Below are positions 4,339-49,962 of a stretch of DNA of 64,000 nucleotides, one piece after another. The translations under genes and the position numbers were made by a program. The notes under the pieces are model-generated. The model was not told the DNA's origin. It saw only the letters and a list, made by a program, of their open reading frames with translations, and ran no database searches. Positions within the stretch are counted from its first letter, which is position 1. The number at the start of each line of letters is the position of its first letter. Source of the DNA: Bacteroidia bacterium (GTDB lineage: Bacteria; Bacteroidota; Bacteroidia; UBA4408); NCBI GenBank assembly GCA_020845635.1, contig JADLFI010000018.1, forward strand, positions 124,001-188,000. Reading direction: 5' to 3'.

Positions 4339-5529
4339 ATGATTATTGATTTACATAATTACGAAATAGTATTGATTGACTACTTTGACGGAAATCTTAG
4401 TCCTGATGAGGTTGGCGAAGTATTGGTTTTTCTGGAACAACATCCCGAAATAAAGAATGCCTATGAAGGGCTGAGCAAACTGCCCATTGTGTCAAGAAGT
4501 GAAAAGTTAGAAAGTAACTTTAAGAACCAATTAAAACGAGATGTTTCTGAAAGGGTAATACCTGCAAATATTGATGAAATGCTAATAGCCCAAATGGAGC
4601 ATGACATAAGCCATAAGGATAATGAAGAATTAACTAAGTTGGCACAACAATATACTGAAATAGCCAAGCTCAAAAATATTTTTGCATTAACCAAGTTAAG
4701 CCCTGATTTATCTGTTCAGTTTCCTGATAAAGAAAGCCTAAAAAAGAAAGGGAGCAAGGTTATTTATATGCCGTTTTTACGATACGCTGCAGCTATTTTG
4801 CTATTATTTTCTTTCGGATATTTTACCCGTAACTACCTTTATCAAATAAATAATGATGGTCAGGAGCAAAAAGTAGCGGTTATTAATAACAATAGTAGGC
4901 CGGAAAGTGAAACTATCGCCTCAACAAATAATAATACTAATGATGGTTTAGAAGTTCATCAGGAAATAACTCATAATACACAGAATACTGTTGCCAACAC
5001 TAATGAGAAGCAACCAAAAATTAATAAAATTTTGAAGTACGATTTACATTCTGTGGCAAAGAAAAATTCCTCGGCTGCTCAAGCACCAGAACTTAGCCCT
5101 GATGATGAAATTAGTCATAAGCAGCCGATTCATCAGGAAATAGTTAATCAAATCGCACAGGAGAACAAAACCACTAATCATGAAGGTGTGGTACGTAATG
5201 AAATTGACAATATTTCAACAAACCCAAATGTATTTACACAAGTACCTCCGATAGTACGTAACCATAATGAGTATATGGGGGTACAGGAATGGATAACCGA
5301 GAAAATTATTGCCCAAAGCAAGAAGAATCTGTATGAAGAGGGGGGACAGCAGTCTGATTCCGTTTCAAGAAATATTGAACTTATTAATATAGCGGCTTTA
5401 GGAGCAGGTTTGATTGAAAAAGCAACATCTACCGAGGTAGAAATACGCAAATCTCAGAACAACAAAACTAAAATTTTCTCTTTTGCCTTAGGTAAATTTA
5501 AGTACGAGAACATTAAGCGGCTCAACTAA
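4339..5529 (+). CDS. Single-pass membrane protein, putative anti-sigma factor
   Basis: A 396-residue protein starting one base after the ECF sigma stop codon. The N-terminal 140 residues are cytoplasmic-like and begin with YEIVLIDYFDGNLSPDEVGEV, a motif often seen in non-zinc anti-sigma-like proteins of Bacteroidota. No HxxxCxxC zinc motif is present. One membrane helix lies at about residues 147-168 (FLRYAAAILLLFSFGYFTRN). The rest, about 220 residues rich in Asn, Gln, Thr and Ser, would be periplasmic and looks disordered. Position and topology suggest it holds the sigma factor inactive at the inner membrane, but this is inference. It converges on nuoN with a 44-base gap. Confidence 0.65.
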   Translation: MIIDLHNYEIVLIDYFDGNLSPDEVGEVLVFLEQHPEIKNAYEGLSKLPIVSRSEKLESNFKNQLKRDVSERVIPANIDEMLIAQMEHDISHKDNEELTKLAQQYTEIAKLKNIFALTKLSPDLSVQFPDKESLKKKGSKVIYMPFLRYAAAILLLFSFGYFTRNYLYQINNDGQEQKVAVINNNSRPESETIASTNNNTNDGLEVHQEITHNTQNTVANTNEKQPKINKILKYDLHSVAKKNSSAAQAPELSPDDEISHKQPIHQEIVNQIAQENKTTNHEGVVRNEIDNISTNPNVFTQVPPIVRNHNEYMGVQEWITEKIIAQSKKNLYEEGGQQSDSVSRNIELINIAALGAGLIEKATSTEVEIRKSQNNKTKIFSFALGKFKYENIKRLN

Positions 5530-17502: not shown

Positions 17503-19077
17503 ATGAGCGAAGACCAAAAAAAACAACTCGAACAACAACTTTGGAACATTGCCAATACCTTGAGAGGCAAGATGAATGCGGATGAGTTCCGTGATTATAT
17601 TTTAGGTTTTATTTTCTATAAATATCTATCAGAAAGAATGGACATTTATGCGAACAGCATATTGAAAGCGGACAAGATTAAATACATAGATATTAAAGAA
17701 AACTCCAAACAAGGCAAAGAATACATTGAAGCCATCCGTGAGGAATCCTTGGAGAAATTGGGTTATTTCTTAAAACCTTCTGAATTGTTCAGCGAAGTGG
17801 CAAAGCGTGGCAACAGCGATAAAGAAGAAGATGAAAGCAATTTTATATTGGAAGACCTGCAAAAAATCCTTACCAATATTCAACAAAGCACAATGGGAAC
17901 AGAATCGGAAGAAGATTTTGACCATTTGTTTGAAGATATGGATTTAAACAGCACCAAATTGGGTAAAACTCCCGAAGCAAGAAATGCAATTATTGCAAAG
18001 GTGCTATCGCACCTTGATAAAATTGATTTTAAATTAGAGCATACCGAGTTAGATGTGTTGGGTGATGCTTACGAATATCTGATTGGACAATTTGCGAGTG
18101 GCGCAGGAAAAAAAGCAGGCGAGTTTTACACACCACAGGAAGTAAGCATGGTGCTTGCTAAACTTGTAACCACAGGCAAACAAAAACTAAAATCGGTTTA
18201 TGACCCAACTTGTGGTTCGGGTTCGTTGTTGCTTCGTGTGGCCCGAGAAGTAAAAGATGTAGCCATGTTTTACGGACAGGAACTTAACCGAACAACCTAT
18301 AACCTTGCCCGAATGAACATGATTTTGCACGGTGTGCATTATCGCAAATTCGACATTAAGCAAGAGGACACTCTGGAGCATCCGCAACATATTGATAAAA
18401 CCTTTGAAGCCATTGTTGCCAATCCGCCTTTCTCTGCCAAATGGAGTGCCAACCCTTTGTTTACAAGTGATGACCGCTTTAGCCAATACGGAAAGTTAGC
18501 ACCAAGCAGTAAAGCCGACTTTGCTTTTGTACAACACATGATTTATCACTTGGCAGAAAACGGAATCATGGCTATTGTTTTGCCGCATGGAGCATTGTTT
18601 CGCAGTGGTGCCGAGCAACACATTCGCAGATATTTAATTGAGGACAAAAACTATTTAGATGCCGTAATTGGTTTGCCGGCCAATATTTTTTACGGAACAA
18701 GTATTCCAACCTGCATTATGGTTTTTAAAAAATGCCGAGAAAATCCGGAAGATATTTTGTTCATTGATGCCGGCAACGATTTTGAAAAAGTAAAAACGCA
18801 AAATATTTTACGCGAGCAGCACATCAACAAAATCATTGACACCTACCGTCATCGTGCCGAAATTGATAAATACAGCAAAAAAGCCGGTTTGCAAGAAATT
18901 GCAAGCAATGATTATAATCTTAACATTCCACGCTATGTGGACACCTTTGAGGAAGAAGAACAAATTGACATTAATGCCATTGCCAATGAATTAAAAACCT
19001 TGGACAAAACCATTGAAAAAACAGATATAACCATTGCTACATTTTGTGCAGCATTGGGGATAGAAACACCTTTTTGA
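17503..19077 (+). CDS. hsdM: Type I restriction-modification system M subunit
   Basis: A 524-residue N6-adenine DNA methyltransferase of the HsdM family. The N-terminal helical domain (LWNIANTLRGKMNADEFRDYIL) is followed by the AdoMet-binding motif DPTCGSG (234-240) and the catalytic NPPF (307-310). GEFYTPQEVS before motif I is typical. With HsdS it methylates the recognition site, and with HsdR it cleaves unmethylated DNA. The partners lie 1.5 and 6 kb downstream, separated by cargo genes. The gene appears intact. Confidence 0.96.
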   Translation: MSEDQKKQLEQQLWNIANTLRGKMNADEFRDYILGFIFYKYLSERMDIYANSILKADKIKYIDIKENSKQGKEYIEAIREESLEKLGYFLKPSELFSEVAKRGNSDKEEDESNFILEDLQKILTNIQQSTMGTESEEDFDHLFEDMDLNSTKLGKTPEARNAIIAKVLSHLDKIDFKLEHTELDVLGDAYEYLIGQFASGAGKKAGEFYTPQEVSMVLAKLVTTGKQKLKSVYDPTCGSGSLLLRVAREVKDVAMFYGQELNRTTYNLARMNMILHGVHYRKFDIKQEDTLEHPQHIDKTFEAIVANPPFSAKWSANPLFTSDDRFSQYGKLAPSSKADFAFVQHMIYHLAENGIMAIVLPHGALFRSGAEQHIRRYLIEDKNYLDAVIGLPANIFYGTSIPTCIMVFKKCRENPEDILFIDAGNDFEKVKTQNILREQHINKIIDTYRHRAEIDKYSKKAGLQEIASNDYNLNIPRYVDTFEEEEQIDINAIANELKTLDKTIEKTDITIATFCAALGIETPF

Positions 19078-19091
19078 TAGGCATTCTAAAA

Positions 19092-19649
19092 ATGGATAAA
19101 TTCAAAAATAAATATCGAATACCGTCTGCCCGATTGCAAAATTGGGATTATAGCAGCAATGGTGCCTATTTTATTACCATTTGCACCCAAAACAGGGAAC
19201 ATTTTTTTGGCGAAATTGTGAATAACAAAATGCAATTAAACGAATTGGGGCAATTGGCAGAAAAATACTGGTTAGAAATACCCAATCATTTTCCATTTAT
19301 TGAATTGGAAAATTTTGTGGTAATGCCCAACCATACGCACGGGATATTGATTATAGATTCCAATTCCAATTGTAGAGGCGCGATTAATCGCGCCTCTACA
19401 ATTGGAATTGGCGGTGTCACAGGAAATAAAAATCCTATGTTGCACCAAAATATTTCCCGAATAATTCGATGGTACAAAGGGCGTTGTTCATTTGAAATGC
19501 ATAAAATCCACGCAGATTTTGCCTGGCAATCCCGTTTTCACGACCATATTATTCGTGATACACCATCATTTAAACGCATACAAACCTATATTAAAAACAA
19601 TCCAATGAATTGGAATGAGGATAAATTTTATGGAAACAACAACCAATAA
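19092..19649 (+). CDS. REP-associated tyrosine transposase (RAYT) 1, Y1/HUH type
   Basis: A 185-residue single-strand transposase of the TnpA-REP family. The N-terminal strand GAYFITICTQNREHFFGEI, the HUH motif MPNHTHGI and the catalytic tyrosine in YIKNNPMNWNEDKF are all present, so it looks functional. I chose the ATG at 19092 because family members begin at about this point. It starts 14 bases after hsdM and its stop overlaps the ATG of a broken hsdS copy. A perfect 52-bp palindrome sits inside the frame at 19360-19411. RAYTs process REP-like hairpins, so the embedded palindrome may be its own substrate. Confidence 0.88.
   Translation: MDKFKNKYRIPSARLQNWDYSSNGAYFITICTQNREHFFGEIVNNKMQLNELGQLAEKYWLEIPNHFPFIELENFVVMPNHTHGILIIDSNSNCRGAINRASTIGIGGVTGNKNPMLHQNISRIIRWYKGRCSFEMHKIHADFAWQSRFHDHIIRDTPSFKRIQTYIKNNPMNWNEDKFYGNNNQ
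19360..19411. repeat. Perfect 52-bp palindrome inside RAYT 1
   Basis: Two 26-base arms without spacer: the left arm is 19360-19385 and the right arm 19386-19411, with centre GATTAATC. Every base pairs. The arms contain GTAGAGGCGCGATT and its complement. The insert is in frame and encodes NCRGAINRASTIG between the HUH motif and the C-terminal helix, a variable loop of the family. It could form a cruciform or mRNA hairpin. Confidence 0.95.
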
Positions 19650-19713
19650 AAACCAAAACACACCACAACTCCGTTTCCCCGAATTTACAGGCGAATGGGA
19701 AAAAATAAAATGA
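19630..19713 (+). pseudogene. Truncated duplicate of the hsdS 5' end
   Basis: ATG followed by 26 more codons and TGA. The peptide reads TTTNKNQNTPQLRFPEFTGE and is nearly the same as the start of the intact hsdS at 20570, with about four base differences in about 70. It overlaps the end of RAYT 1 and is followed by the rhuM fragment. It marks where hsdS once began and where the RhuM/GxxExxY module entered. Confidence 0.85.
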
Positions 19714-19719
19714 AATTAT

Positions 19720-20043
19720 ATGGAAAAAAGTAAAATAATAATATATCAAACAGAGGACGGCAAAACTAAAATTGAAACGCGGTTAGAGGATGAAACGGTT
19801 TGGCTTACACAAGCTCAATTGTGTGAATTGTTCCAAAAATCCAAATCAACTGTGAGTGAACACATCAAGAATATTTTTGAAGAAGGCGAATTGGATGCTA
19901 ACTCAGTTGTTCGGAATTTCCGAATAACTGCCGCTGATGGTAAAAACTACAATACTGCTTTCTACAACTTAGACGTAATTATATCAGTAGGCTATAGTGT
20001 TAAAAGTCACCAAGGTACCAAGTTTAGCATCTGTCAGTATTAG
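19720..20043 (+). pseudogene. Truncated RhuM-family gene
   Basis: 107 residues that match the start of the RhuM virulence-protein family: IIIYQTEDGKTKIETRLEDE, VWLTQAQLCELFQKSKSTVSEHIKNIFEEGEL and the NLDVIISVGYSVKSHQGTKF segment. The family is about 330 residues long. Here the frame turns to an unrelated ending after the conserved SHQGT motif and stops, so the C-terminal two thirds are lost. RhuM genes are frequent passengers between hsdM, hsdS and hsdR in type I systems. The N-terminal helix-turn-helix alone might still be expressed. Confidence 0.75.
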
Positions 20044-20055
20044 GATTTTTAAGAT

Positions 20056-20074
20056 TTAAGGATGATAGGATTAA
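20056..20074 (+). repeat. 19-bp direct repeat, left copy
   Basis: TTAAGGATGATAGGATTAA occurs here just upstream of the GxxExxY gene and again, identically, at 20491-20509 near its 3' end. Confidence 0.85.
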
Positions 20075-20087
20075 AAAATGAAAAGAA

Positions 20088-20573
20088 ATGAAATACGAGG
20101 AAATAACCCATAAAATTATTGGATGTGCGATGAAAGTACATAGCACTTTGGGTAATGGCTTTCAAGAAGTGATATACCAAAGAGCTTTGGCTATTGAAAT
20201 GCAAAATAAAGGACTAAATTTTCAAAGAGAAATGGAAATGACCATATTTTATGAAGGCATTGATATTGGAACAAGAAGAGTTGATTTTTTTGTGGAAGAT
20301 ACAATAATGGTAGAACTTAAAGCTTTGATAAAATTAGAAGATGTGCATTTGGCACAAGCGATGAATTATTGCCAAGCCTATAAATTGCCGGTTGGATTAT
20401 TGATAAATTTCGGAGCAAAAAGTTTAGAATTTAAACGCGTTTATAATCTCACTCACCCTGAAAATAAGTTAGATTCAAAATTAAAAGCAATTAAGGATGA
20501 TAGGATTAATTTATCAAATGAATCCAACATCCTACAATCAAATAATCCTATAAATCCAAATTTAGACAAATGA
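20088..20573 (+). CDS. GxxExxY protein (PDDEXK_3 family)
   Basis: A 161-residue protein with the naming motif GFQEVIY at residues 24-30 (Gly24, Glu27, Tyr30). A PD-(D/E)xK-like core follows in RRVDFFVEDTIMVELKAL, with Asp66, Glu76 and Lys78, and then LAQAMNYCQAYKLPVGLLINFG. The family is PDDEXK-nuclease-like, with unknown cellular role. Members are also found in intervening sequences of 23S rRNA genes. The stop overlaps the hsdS start (ATGA), so translation of hsdS may be coupled to it. The last 20 codons lie in repeat DNA. Confidence 0.88.
   Translation: MKYEEITHKIIGCAMKVHSTLGNGFQEVIYQRALAIEMQNKGLNFQREMEMTIFYEGIDIGTRRVDFFVEDTIMVELKALIKLEDVHLAQAMNYCQAYKLPVGLLINFGAKSLEFKRVYNLTHPENKLDSKLKAIKDDRINLSNESNILQSNNPINPNLDK
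20491..20509 (+). repeat. 19-bp direct repeat, right copy
   Basis: Identical to 20056-20074. Downstream, up to 20565, the motif AATCC/ATCCT recurs four times. It looks like an imperfect inverted counterpart of the AGGATT-rich DNA upstream of the GxxExxY gene. Confidence 0.85.
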
Positions 20574-21802
20574 CAACAACCAATAAAAACCAAAACACAC
20601 CACCACTCCGTTTTCCTGAATTTACAGGTGAATGGGAAAAATTAAAGTTATCACATTTTCTTACAAGATATTCTGAAACCAATAAAGACGAAGAATTTAG
20701 TCTTGATGATATTTTATCGTTATCATCATATCACGGAATTGTAAGTAGAAAAGAGCTACTTGAAGATACATATAACAATGTAAATCATCTAAATTATAAA
20801 AAGACAAGATTTAATGACTTTGTTTATGGAAAGAGTATTAGTGCAAATTATCCTTTTGGCTTATTTAAAGTAAATAATTTAAAAGACGGTTTGCTGTCTA
20901 CACTTTACTTTACTTTTAAGGTTAAAGACACAGTTTGTCCAATTTTTTTGGATTGTTATTTTAGTCATTTCACAAGAGCAAATAATTTTTTGAGAAAGTT
21001 TGTTTTGGTTGGAGATAGATATATTACAGCAGATGCAGATTATTTACTAAGTGGTAGAATCTTCCTGCCAAAACAAAAAGTAGAGCAAACCAAAATTGCC
21101 TCCTTTCTCACTGCCGTAGATGAAAAAATACAAGCCCTCAAACAAAAGAAAAACGGGCTGGAGCAATACAAAAAAGGGGTGATGCAGAGGATATTTAATT
21201 ACGAATGTGATAATGACGAATTACGAATCCGTTTCAAAGATGAGAACGGAAAAGACTTTCCAAAATGGGAAATGAAAAAGTTGGGGGAGGTGTGTGAAAT
21301 AACAATGGGGCAATCACCAAGTTCAAATTCATATAACTCAATTGGTAATGGAATACCATTAATTCAAGGAAATGCGGATATTCAAAACAGATTAACAAAT
21401 CCAAGAAATTGGACAACTGAAAAAACAAAGGAATGTAATATTGGCGATTTAATTTTAACTGTAAGAGCACCTGTTGGGGCTGTAGCAAAATCAATTCATA
21501 ATGCTTGTATAGGAAGAGGAGTTTGTTCTATTAAGAATAATTCAAAAAGTAACATTGAATTTATTTATCAGTTCCTTTTGAGCTTTGAAAGTAAATGGAG
21601 CAATTTGGAACAAGGAAGTACATTTGCAGCAGTAAGTGGTAATGAAATTAAATCTTTAAAAATTCCAATCCCCTCCCTTCCCGAACAAGAAAAAATTGCA
21701 AATTTTCTATCTGCGATAGACGAAAAAATAAACCATACCCAAACGCAAATAGAAAAAACAGAACACTGGAAAAAAGGCTTGTTGCAAAAAATGTTTGTGT
21801 AA
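20570..21802 (+). CDS. hsdS: Type I restriction-modification system S subunit
   Basis: A 410-residue specificity subunit that selects the bipartite DNA target. Target-recognition domain 1 spans about residues 10-165. The central conserved coiled coil is KIASFLTAVDEKIQALKQKK (about 174-200). Target-recognition domain 2 spans about 230-370, and the closing coiled coil is EKIANFLSAIDEKINH...WKKGLLQKMFV. Both halves look intact. Pieces of other hsdS copies lie at 19630-19713 and 22918-23061. The start overlaps the stop of the GxxExxY gene. Confidence 0.95.
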   Translation: MTTTNKNQNTPPLRFPEFTGEWEKLKLSHFLTRYSETNKDEEFSLDDILSLSSYHGIVSRKELLEDTYNNVNHLNYKKTRFNDFVYGKSISANYPFGLFKVNNLKDGLLSTLYFTFKVKDTVCPIFLDCYFSHFTRANNFLRKFVLVGDRYITADADYLLSGRIFLPKQKVEQTKIASFLTAVDEKIQALKQKKNGLEQYKKGVMQRIFNYECDNDELRIRFKDENGKDFPKWEMKKLGEVCEITMGQSPSSNSYNSIGNGIPLIQGNADIQNRLTNPRNWTTEKTKECNIGDLILTVRAPVGAVAKSIHNACIGRGVCSIKNNSKSNIEFIYQFLLSFESKWSNLEQGSTFAAVSGNEIKSLKIPIPSLPEQEKIANFLSAIDEKINHTQTQIEKTEHWKKGLLQKMFV

Positions 21803-21814
21803 GTAGGTTTAAAT

Positions 21815-21856
21815 TTACCGTGAAAAATTATATATTTGTGTAGCTTTTCACGGTAA
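21815..21856 (+). promoter_or_regulatory. Fic promoter with flanking perfect inverted repeat
   Basis: TTACCGTGAAAA (21815-21826) and TTTTCACGGTAA (21845-21856) are perfectly complementary 12-base arms, 18 bases apart. Between them lies TATATTTG (21831-21838), a perfect -7 element, so transcription would start in or near the right arm, about 25 bases before the fic ATG. This is the layout of a repressor operator, and alternatively an mRNA hairpin. Confidence 0.7.
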
Positions 21857-21871
21857 GTAAAGGTAGTTAAA

Positions 21872-22783
21872 ATGATTAATCAAACCACAAAAAACAAAAT
21901 AGAAGCCCTGCAAAACCGCTACATTGCATTGGCTAAAGGCAACGAGCCTTTGCTGAAAGAAATAGCCCTTGCCGAAATTCCCGAAATGGTGTACAACTCA
22001 AACGCCATAGAAAACTCAACACTTACTTTAGAAGACACCGAAAGAATATTGGCAGGCGATACCTTAAACCGCAAAGTAAACGTGCGTGAAGTTTACGAAG
22101 CCAAAAATTTGGCAAAAATTACCGAAAACCTGCTTAAAAAAAACAAACACAAACTTAATATCAAACTCATTTTAGATTTACACAAAACCCTGCTTACTCA
22201 TATTAACGACAGTATTGCGGGGCGTTTTCGCAGTGGTAAAGAATGGGTGCGCGTGGGCAGTCATTTAGGCGCCAACCCAAAATTTGTGCCTACCTTAATG
22301 CAAGAGTTGGTTGAAAACTACAATAAAAAATCGAATAGTTATTTTTTAGATACAATAGCCCGCTTTCACGCAGAGTTTGAAACCATTCACCCTTTTGTTG
22401 ATGGCAACGGACGTATGGGCAGGCTGCTTATCAATTTACAATTAATGAATGTAGGATTGCCACCTATTATCATTCAAAACAAAAGTAAAAACACAGCGTA
22501 TTATCCATTATTTTCACAATACCAAACTAAAATGAAATTTGGCGGCTTTACAGCATTGTTTGCATTGCTCTTGCAAGAGGCATTACACAAACGAATAACA
22601 CTACTCACGGCAAAAAAAATAATTCCGCTTTCGGTATGGGCTTCGCAAAATGGCGTAAAACCCAACGTGGCAGCCAACAAAGCAAAACGGCAAACCATTC
22701 CCGCATTTCGTATGCGCGAAAAATGGATGATAGCAGAAGAATCAATTACGAATGGTTTAATTACGAATAATGAAGAAGAATAA
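21872..22783 (+). CDS. Fic family protein, class II
   Basis: A 303-residue Fic protein that would transfer AMP (or another nucleotide moiety) from NTP to a target hydroxyl. The active-site loop HPFVDGNGRMGR (173-184) fits HPFxxGNGRxxR fully, with catalytic His173. An N-terminal inhibitory motif SNAIEN (43-48, pattern S/TxxxE-G/N) marks it as a self-inhibited class II member. The C-terminal 60 residues hold a helix-turn-helix-like segment (KPNVAANKAKRQTIPAF), which may bind the inverted repeat upstream. Its target is unknown. It is cargo between hsdS and hsdR, as often seen in type I loci. Confidence 0.92.
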   Translation: MINQTTKNKIEALQNRYIALAKGNEPLLKEIALAEIPEMVYNSNAIENSTLTLEDTERILAGDTLNRKVNVREVYEAKNLAKITENLLKKNKHKLNIKLILDLHKTLLTHINDSIAGRFRSGKEWVRVGSHLGANPKFVPTLMQELVENYNKKSNSYFLDTIARFHAEFETIHPFVDGNGRMGRLLINLQLMNVGLPPIIIQNKSKNTAYYPLFSQYQTKMKFGGFTALFALLLQEALHKRITLLTAKKIIPLSVWASQNGVKPNVAANKAKRQTIPAFRMREKWMIAEESITNGLITNNEEE

Positions 22784-23129
22784 TGTTATACAGCAAAAAA
22801 GCTATGCTTTTGCCGTGCAAATTGTAAAGGGATATCAATATTTATGTGAAGATAAAATGGAGTTTACACTAAGCAAACAATTGTTGAGGTCAGGAACTTC
22901 GCTAGGTGTAAACATTGATTTTACAAAATATATTACAGGAAGTACAATTCCACATATTTATTTCAAAGATTATAAAAATGAAGAAATCCATCTTCCCTCC
23001 CTACCCGAACAAGAAAAAATTGCGAATTTTTTATCTGCCATAGACGAAAAAATAAACCATAACCATACACAGCCCGAGAAGCCACCCCGAAAAGCCGCCC
23101 CAAAAGACGAAAAAAAATATAAAAAGAAA
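22770..23129 (+). pseudogene. Composite remnant: four-helix-bundle (S23) start joined to an hsdS end
   Basis: The first 49 codons match the N-terminus of the S23/four-helix-bundle proteins (KSYAFAVQIVKGYQYLCEDK, then LSKQLLRSGTSLGVNI) and break exactly where the family would continue with EEA. From about 22918 the frame switches to the end of an HsdS target-recognition domain and the closing coiled coil (YFKDYKNEEIHLPSLPEQEK, then IANFLSAIDEKINH). From about 23061 it decays. The hsdS part matches 21671-21737 with four differences in 67 bases, but the preceding domain residues differ from the intact hsdS. The start overlaps the fic stop by 14 bases. The open frame continues into RAYT 2. Confidence 0.8.
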
Positions 23130-23753
23130 ATGAACCAATACAATCCACATAAACACCACAGGCGTTCCATACGGTTAAAAGGATACGATTACGCACAGGC
23201 AGGATTGTATTTTATAACAATCTGTGTACAAAACCGAGAATGTTTGTTTGGAACCGTTGAAAATGGCGAGATGATATTGAATGAATATGGACAGATTGCA
23301 TATAATGAATGGCAAAAAACACCAGAAATTCGCACCAATGTGGCATTGGGTGAATTTATCATCATGCCCAATCATATTCATGGCATCGTGGAAATTATTT
23401 TTCAAAAAGAAAATTCAAAATCAGAAATTGGGAAATTTCAATCGCCATCTCAAACCATTGGCTCAATAATAAGAGGCTATAAAATAGCCACCATAAAAAA
23501 AATTAAAGATTTAATTTCATTAAATTCTGGGGGCGAATTGAAATCCGAAATAAATAGGGGCGAATCAAAAACCGGAATAAATAGGGGCGAATTGAAATTC
23601 GCCCCAACGGAAAAAATAATCCAATTAGATTTTAAAATTTGGCAGCGCAATTATTACGAACACATCATTCGCAATGAACAAGCATACCAAAATATTTCAA
23701 ATTACATCGTCAATAATCCATTAAATTGGAATAAAGATAAATTTCATGGCTAA
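23130..23753 (+). CDS. REP-associated tyrosine transposase (RAYT) 2, Y1/HUH type
   Basis: A 207-residue Y1 transposase related to but distinct from RAYT 1. It has GYDYAQAGLYFITICVQNRE, the HUH motif MPNHIHGI and the catalytic tyrosine in NYIVNNPLNWNKDKFHG. I placed the start at the in-frame ATG at 23130, because the sequence upstream belongs to the S23/hsdS remnant. Its stop codon lies inside the first codons of a broken hsdR copy (ATGGCTAA). A 27-base tandem repeat ending in a palindrome is embedded in the frame at 23530-23605, in the same variable loop as the palindrome of RAYT 1. Confidence 0.87.
   Translation: MNQYNPHKHHRRSIRLKGYDYAQAGLYFITICVQNRECLFGTVENGEMILNEYGQIAYNEWQKTPEIRTNVALGEFIIMPNHIHGIVEIIFQKENSKSEIGKFQSPSQTIGSIIRGYKIATIKKIKDLISLNSGGELKSEINRGESKTGINRGELKFAPTEKIIQLDFKIWQRNYYEHIIRNEQAYQNISNYIVNNPLNWNKDKFHG
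23530..23605 (+). repeat. In-frame 27-base tandem repeat ending in a palindrome
   Basis: Two 27-base units (23530-23556 and 23557-23583) start with GGGGCGAAT and end with ATAAATA. A third, partial unit (23584-23605) is the hairpin GGGGCGAATT-GA-AATTCGCCCC. The units encode the nine-residue pattern (R/G)GE(L/S)K(S/T)(E/G)IN. This resembles REP-type DNA carried inside a RAYT gene. Confidence 0.9.
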
Positions 23754-23853
23754 ACAACCCGAACAAATATTAGAAGAACAATTAGTCGCCAATCTTCAAA
23801 AATTGGGCTATCAATTTGTTGCTGTCACAGATAAAAAAAGCATTGTTAAGTAA
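23746..23853 (+). pseudogene. Truncated duplicate of the hsdR 5' end
   Basis: ATG plus 34 codons and TAA. The peptide AKQPEQILEEQLVANLQKLG is almost the start of HsdR. The first 41 bases are identical to those at 25030. After codon 35 the frame ends. It overlaps the RAYT 2 stop codon and precedes the AbiF module, marking where hsdR once began. Confidence 0.88.
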
Positions 23854-49920: not shown

Positions 49921-49962
49921 AATAAATAGAGCGTATCGTACTCTCGATACGCTCTATTTATT
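49921..49962 (+). terminator. Strong terminator hairpin after metK
   Basis: An 18-bp perfect stem (49921-49938 with 49945-49962) and a 6-base loop. The stem starts with AATAAATAGAGCGTATCG. The T tract is short, but the stem itself ends in TATTTATT. Confidence 0.85.

Follow-up and report, generated by a model that had tools for sequence, protein, structure and literature searches.

What is a long perfect palindrome doing inside the coding sequence of a transposase gene? The question arises from a 64,000-nucleotide stretch of DNA from a Bacteroidia bacterium (assembly GCA_020845635.1, contig JADLFI010000018.1, positions 124,001 to 188,000), referred to here as the window. A preliminary description made from the letters alone had reported a 52-bp palindrome of 26 + 26 bases in the variable loop of a RAYT gene, downstream of the HUH motif and upstream of the catalytic tyrosine, and had proposed that the gene carries its own substrate or was entered by a REP element. 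The gene begins at 19092 (MDKFKNKYRIP...), ends with the stop codon at 19647-19649 and comprises 185 codons, and its product matches Pfam Y1_Tnp (E 7e-6). The best PDB match of the predicted fold (AF2) is 4er8, the E. coli TnpA_REP in complex with a REP hairpin, and both HUH histidines (H81 and H83) and the catalytic tyrosine (Y166) are invariant in an alignment, A1, of the window protein with 24 homologues. In the AF2 model residues 92-116 form a disordered loop that holds the palindrome-encoded peptide and lies directly before helix aC. The reported site is thus borne out, with NHTH before the palindrome, Y166 after it and a predicted disordered loop around it (Table 1).

So too are its dimensions: an inverted-repeat search of the window found overlapping arms of 26 + 26 with 0 mismatches and a spacer of 0, making this the longest perfect inverted repeat of the whole window, where 1.6e-10 palindromes of this kind would be expected from composition. 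Assembly errors in draft genomes can yield long perfect palindromes, but that expectation argues against chance, and the finding that close homologues from unrelated assemblies share the core and its location rules out chance and artefact alike, to which we attach practically no weight. The further statement that the palindrome is in frame holds only in the sense that the ORF stays open, as 52 bp do not make up a whole number of codons. The central 28 bp, with halves GTAGAGGCGCGATT/AATCGCGCCTCTAC, constitute a 'double-foot' REP, in which a GTAG foot adjoins the stem at both ends as in known REPs (where it is GTAG or GTGG), and the outer 12 + 12 bp are CCAATT twice, plus its complement, forming an extra arm. 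The mobile-looking unit is the central 28 bp and not the whole 52 bp.

Table 1. Coordinates of the first RAYT gene and of the features within it (position 1 is the first letter of the window)
Feature	Position	Strand	Basis
RAYT / TnpA_REP gene, 185 aa	19092..19649	+	ORF; Pfam Y1_Tnp; 32 homologues; AF2 model matching 4er8
HUH motif NHTH, residues 80-83	19329..19340	+	translation; H81 and H83 invariant in A1
52-bp perfect palindrome	19360..19411	.	inverted-repeat search
Left arm extension CCAATTCCAATT, outside REP foot	19360..19371	+	sequence
28-bp double-foot REP core GTAGAGGCGCGATTAATCGCGCCTCTAC	19372..19399	.	core common to homologues; single copy in home genome
GTAG foot	19372-19375		
CTAC foot	19396-19399		
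Right arm extension AATTGGAATTGG, outside REP foot	19400..19411	+	sequence
Helix aC, residues 121-137, ISRIIRWYKGRCSFEMH	19452..19502	+	AF2 helix; best predictor of inner core
R126-W127-Y128, tripeptide most informative on palindrome core	19467..19475	+	covariation
WQSRFHDH, residues 145-152, covaries with outer stem	19524..19547	+	F149 z 14.5; partial correlation 0.331
Catalytic tyrosine Y166 in YIKNNP	19587..19589	+	invariant in A1

An arrangement of this type has already been published. TnpA_REP subclass 2.4 is common in Cyanobacteria and Bacteroidetes and, according to Quentin et al. (2018, PMC6006769), has as its hallmark 'double foot' REPs located between HUH and Tyr with the frame intact; the window gene is a further member. 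It combines the Y1_Tnp HUH fold and a single catalytic Tyr (Pfam, A1, 4er8) with the motifs of the subclass (NH[IFV]H, WQ and YIxNNP, represented here by NHTH, with T for I/F/V, WQ and YIKNNP), a variable insertion between beta-3 and aC (alignment and AF2 model) and an intragenic REP with the frame kept. Likeness to subclass 2.4, or Bertels group 4, as described there thus extends from NHxH, WQ, YIxNNP and the beta3-aC insertion to GTAG at both ends, intragenic frame-kept palindromes and occurrence in Bacteroidetes; unlike the description there, the arms in the window gene run 12 bp past each foot, further copies are absent from the genome and no REP flanks the gene (PMC6006769). The E. coli TnpA_REP (4er8; group 2) and the group 3 enzymes share the fold, the GTAG foot, a DNA-binding alpha-3 and co-evolution with the REP, but their REPs are extragenic, the palindrome being bulged in group 2 and short and looped in group 3, whereas that of the window is perfect, symmetric and intragenic (PMC8266576). 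The GTAG-tagged REPs of Di Nocera et al. (2013, PMC3733652) are likewise short, RAYT-associated and in some cases intragenic; the part of that account on which we rely gives CGTC, not GTAG, repeats for Bacteroidetes, and its intragenic REPs lie in varied genes. Rickettsia palindromic elements also sit within open frames, but they occupy many unrelated genes and have no dedicated transposase, whereas the window palindrome is confined to a RAYT gene, its sole location in the home genome.

Is the palindrome a property of this one gene or of its family? Our first homologue set, taken from a public genome collection, comprised 32 loci, and in most of them the same loop holds a palindrome of 28-29 bp with the pattern GTAGAG-core-CTCTAC. 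A wider sample, drawn from one phylum by similarity to the window subfamily, took in 396 genomes, 156 of which had a match to the A1 profile and from which 155 full-length genes were recovered. A footed palindrome (GTAG/GTGG foot, up to 3 mismatches) is present in 106 of the 155, nearly always within that loop, and arms that match perfectly over 12 bp or more occur in 74, against 0-1 after codon shuffling; where the palindrome is well matched and the HUH motif mapped, the former lies downstream of the latter in 70 of 71 cases. The palindromes are read in frame 0 (56 genes) or frame 1 (19) and never in the third (0), the frame in which GTAG yields a TAG stop. The same palindrome DNA is read as VETRLIASL in one gene and as RDAINRVST in another, so that it is the DNA and not the peptide that is shared, and the idea that either peptide is the conserved entity was rejected.

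That the palindromes are REPs is indicated by their relatives outside the gene. Where a gene has both a flanking and an intragenic core, the two differ by a mean distance of 0.104, compared with a mean of 0.461 and a minimum of 0.347 in 2000 shuffles, and in several genomes (for example G124, G358, G005 and G008) copies of the intragenic core, exact or one letter off, are dispersed. In other genomes, the window's included, the intragenic copy is the sole one matched by pattern. About a third of the 155 homologues have no footed palindrome, so the palindrome is not needed for a RAYT gene to persist, and its position, copy number and frame differ among homologues. Some RAYT genes (L064, L012, L026 and L105) have two or three copies, sometimes in another loop (before HUH in L026), and at L007 a second perfect palindrome of 46 bp (ATTCCAATTGTAGATACGCGATT...) was seen around 5000-5100, about 2 kb downstream of the RAYT, where there is a short fragment of RAYT-like sequence. 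A plasmid search for cross-phylum comparison gave three hits, a number too small to be informative.

An alternative is that the palindrome serves as a regulatory hairpin, slowing translation in the mRNA or allowing the RAYT to bind its own gene or transcript and limit expression, and that it is kept for regulation and not as a mobile substrate. The RNA fold of the palindrome (-51.4 kcal/mol, z -8.9), its retention across diverged genes and the several genomes in which the intragenic copy is the only pattern match all suit such a role. Against this stand the variable position, copy number and frame, the absence from a third of homologues and the identical REPs that also flank the gene, and regulation alone leaves unexplained why the core should track a DNA-binding helix (see below); we consider a regulatory role distinctly improbable.

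Within the home genome itself the picture is sparser. Pattern searches over its 3.05 Mb recovered no further copy of the 28-bp core with up to 3 mismatches allowed, and two other GTAGAG..CTCTAC matches are unrelated or shorter. Neither the multiple copies of a REP population nor the inverted pairs of a REPIN or BIME are present there, the palindrome being a single unit, and the clustering into REP/BIME units for which the preliminary description had suggested looking is absent. We looked for a footed palindrome beside the window RAYT gene and found none; the palindrome is intragenic, and neither the extragenic or RAYT-flanking location of typical REPs nor the hairpin ends of an IS200/IS605 mobile unit, with its identical multi-copy elements, is seen. 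Nor is there a second near-identical copy of the gene among the matches listed for the home genome. As a PF01797 search of that genome, which listed only two further Y1_Tnp genes, picked up neither RAYT of the window, family counts were based on the A1 profile.

The single copy would, on its own, argue against a REP; it is the homologues that decide in favour, since homologous elements are dispersed, alongside a matching RAYT, in relatives. The preliminary description had held that its reading would fall if the genome had no other copies and homologous RAYT genes no palindrome: the first of these is true, the second false. By sequence, then, the window palindrome is the cognate REP of its gene, which upholds in part the proposal that the gene carries its own substrate or was entered by a REP, in a home genome that lacks a dispersed population, and there is no sign that the window RAYT has spread REPs within it. 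No such RAYT was detected at E 1e-30 in three genomes of the same genus, which suggests that the gene was acquired recently together with its palindrome.

Because the cognate REP lies within the gene, each gene represents an enzyme-target pair, and hundreds of such pairs can be read from sequence. We used 82 non-redundant genes with palindromes as a first test set, defining the inner stem as nt 9-14 and the outer stem as nt 5-8 with boundaries set after that set had been viewed. When nearest neighbours were chosen by the 24 columns around aC their cores lay at a distance of 0.197, compared with 0.292 for the 80 N-terminal columns and 0.301 for the rest of the protein (p ~1e-4, by permutation, which does not fully remove shared ancestry); the best of the 24-column windows tried outside the aC region gave 0.299. 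The inner stem shows a partial correlation of 0.249 with helix aC (null sd 0.025) and of 0.012 with the WQ..HDHI segment, with W127 (z 23.9) the top single column and R126 at z 13.2. The outer stem tracks WQ..HDHI most strongly (0.331, null sd 0.05), with F149 its top column (z 14.5). Parsimony gives the same division: on the rest-of-protein tree the core requires 26 changes and the outer stem 9, and on the tree of the helix the core requires 15 and the outer stem 17.

For replication a second set was drawn, and 41 genes remained once those sharing 90% identity or more with a member of the first set had been dropped. Here the inner stem again follows aC (partial r 0.334, null sd 0.037; nearest-neighbour core distance 0.149 for aC vs 0.342, p 5e-4), and the association of the outer stem with WQ..HDHI is weaker (0.169, p 0.06), the N-terminal part now being stronger, so that the link between outer stem and WQ segment is only suggestive. 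In the pooled sets RWY helices pair with a GCGATT core in 11 of 11 genes and RSY helices with GTTG in about 17 of 19 (mostly GTTGCA), with GSY going with AGGGCA or AAGGCA and AGF with GCACGG; of all three-column windows in the protein, that of residues 126-128 tells most about the core, at 1.26 bits above shuffles. The inner stem, as judged by covariation across genes, follows helix aC and not the remainder of the protein, a result replicated in 41 independent genes. The possibility that the core simply follows the gene tree was rejected by the nearest-neighbour distances, the parsimony counts and the comparison of helix-only and rest-only pairs described below.

Co-evolution of RAYTs and REPs has been known since 2010 (Nunvar 2010, PMC2817692; also Corneloup 2021, PMC8266576). 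In the E. coli TnpA_REP, helix alpha-3 binds DNA, with K82 contacting the REP bulge, and the beta-4 region contacts GTAG (PMC8266576); alpha-3 was also put forward, as speculation, as the reader of group 3 REPs (Corneloup 2021, PMC8266576). Helix aC, at the position equivalent to alpha-3, is a putative reader of the inner stem, and the WQSRFHDH region includes the equivalents of the GTAG-contacting residues. As far as the literature that we found extends, the helix-core correspondence is new; it and the mosaic exchange described below are additions of the present study relative to the sections of Quentin et al. (2018, PMC6006769) that bear on the subject. The correspondence predicts which helix residues to swap if a single-strand transposase is to act on a different hairpin.

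These observations bear on a further rival, namely that REPs insert genome-wide and that those in the RAYT loop are neutral hitch-hikers, merely tolerated as they are in other genes. REPs do occur within unrelated genes (PMC3733652), the loop is predicted to be disordered and both stop-free frames are occupied, all of which fits. Random insertion does not, however, account for the several genomes in which the only copy is within the RAYT gene, or for cores that match the helix of their host gene, and we regard this explanation as unlikely, if less so than a regulatory one. A version in which insertion is preferentially in cis and then tolerated overlaps with our preferred reading, that the palindrome is the cognate hairpin of its RAYT, and is compatible with it.

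How might a RAYT change its REP partner? Pairs of genes alike in the helix only (aC at least 65%, rest below 50%) have a core distance of 0.231, compared with 0.705 for pairs alike in the rest only, among which 0 of 43 have identical cores. Where the DNA on both sides is 72-90% identical between two genes, their helices often match no better than chance and their palindromes differ, and among 152 pairs with flanks of at least 72% identity the distribution of helix identity has two peaks, at 40-50% and 80-90%. An example is the pair of the window gene and L014, with nucleotide identity of 74-90% before the loop, 79-87% after the helix and 33% in residues 114-137, and cores that differ. An AU test on the rest of the protein disfavoured a single clade of RWY-helix genes (p 0.012, post hoc). 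Loop, palindrome and helix therefore look like an exchangeable specificity cassette. In the HsdS subunits of type I restriction enzymes, target-recognition domains are swapped, a specificity block being exchanged within conserved flanks; the likeness is one of analogy only, not homology, and the RAYT block would additionally carry its DNA target.

Transfer of the palindrome together with the helix and re-insertion of a palindrome after helix exchange both fit the data, the occurrence of the same core in differing frames between genes favouring some re-insertion. On balance we lean, by a narrow margin of confidence, towards a two-part code in which aC (residues 126-128) would set the inner stem and the body around WQxRFHDH the outer stem and foot, with the loop-palindrome-helix block recombining as a cassette that bears both specificity and DNA target. 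A RAYT gene moving alone could then seed a new REP family, and the cassette offers a route by which such families might start after gene transfer.

The perfection of the palindrome had been taken to suggest recent origin or active upkeep. It is better read as the outcome of replacement or two-arm correction: identical palindromes are kept in genes of only 62-66% protein identity, and in 6 of 75 palindromes the arms reach 7-12 bp past the GTAG foot into unrelated sequence, with about 0.01 expected for six or more. Among 31 independent pairs of related genes, palindrome differences affect both arms at 27 positions and one arm at 15, the 27 being inflated by the preselection of near-perfect palindromes. 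Between the window and L007, whose left arm extension is shorter (GGTTCCAATT), there is a paired core change plus a CCAATT unit on both arms. Template switching within the hairpin, by which one arm is copied onto the other, is a plausible cause. Extensions of 7-12 bp beyond the GTAG foot, as in the window, were seen at L083, L155, L007, L126 and L098.

Taken together, these results make it probable, in our judgement, that this subclass 2.4 RAYT gene holds its own cognate hairpin, a double-foot REP, in a disordered loop, that the hairpin folds when single-stranded and is bound, cleaved and moved, and that the loop-helix block is exchanged between genes. The anatomy, the homologues, cognacy at the level of sequence, the correlation of helix with core and the mosaic genes are observed; the course of events given next, with binding, cleavage and mobility, is inferred. 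A REP would lodge in the disordered loop that joins strand beta-3 (HUH) to helix aC, where insertions are tolerated, and fold once the strand is single, whereupon the body of the enzyme (the WQxRFHDH region) would bind the GTAG foot and lower stem and helix aC, just downstream of the loop, would read the inner stem. The HUH/Tyr centre would then cleave and transfer the strand, so that the hairpin is copied or moved; insertions that stop translation would be lost and those in both stop-free frames would survive. Loop, palindrome and aC may be swapped between RAYT genes, or the loop may be refilled by a new cognate REP after helix exchange, and in either case the gene would retain a matched enzyme-substrate pair.

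The window encodes a second RAYT (23130-23753), whose palindrome (GGGGCGAATT-GA-AATTCGCCCC, 23584-23605) lies after helix aC rather than before it and was left out of the helix-core tests because it has no foot. By eye, its helix IIRGYKIA and body motif WQRNYYEH go with GGGGCGAATT, and L146 and L159 similarly combine IIRGYK and WQRGYYDH with GGGGCGAATCG; on this visual comparison the second RAYT agrees with the helix/body pairing seen in the first set. Both RAYTs are within a type I restriction-modification locus (17503-23850), with HsdM at 17503-19077 and HsdS at 20570-21802. The first RAYT is followed by 74 bp that repeat the 5' end of hsdS (19636-19709, with 69/74 positions matching 20573-20646), the second is preceded by roughly 90 bp that repeat the 3' part of hsdS (22981-23071), and between the first RAYT and hsdS are what we take to be a truncated RhuM-like ORF (19720-20043) and a GxxExxY-like ORF (20088-20573). 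HsdM or HsdS homologues were also seen within a few kb of the RAYT in about 20 of the fetched loci (including L007, L011, L028, L037, L065 and L072). Elsewhere in the window, a perfect inverted repeat at 49921-49962 (AATAAATAGAGCGTATCG), of 18 + 18 nt around a loop of 6 nt, may be a terminator.
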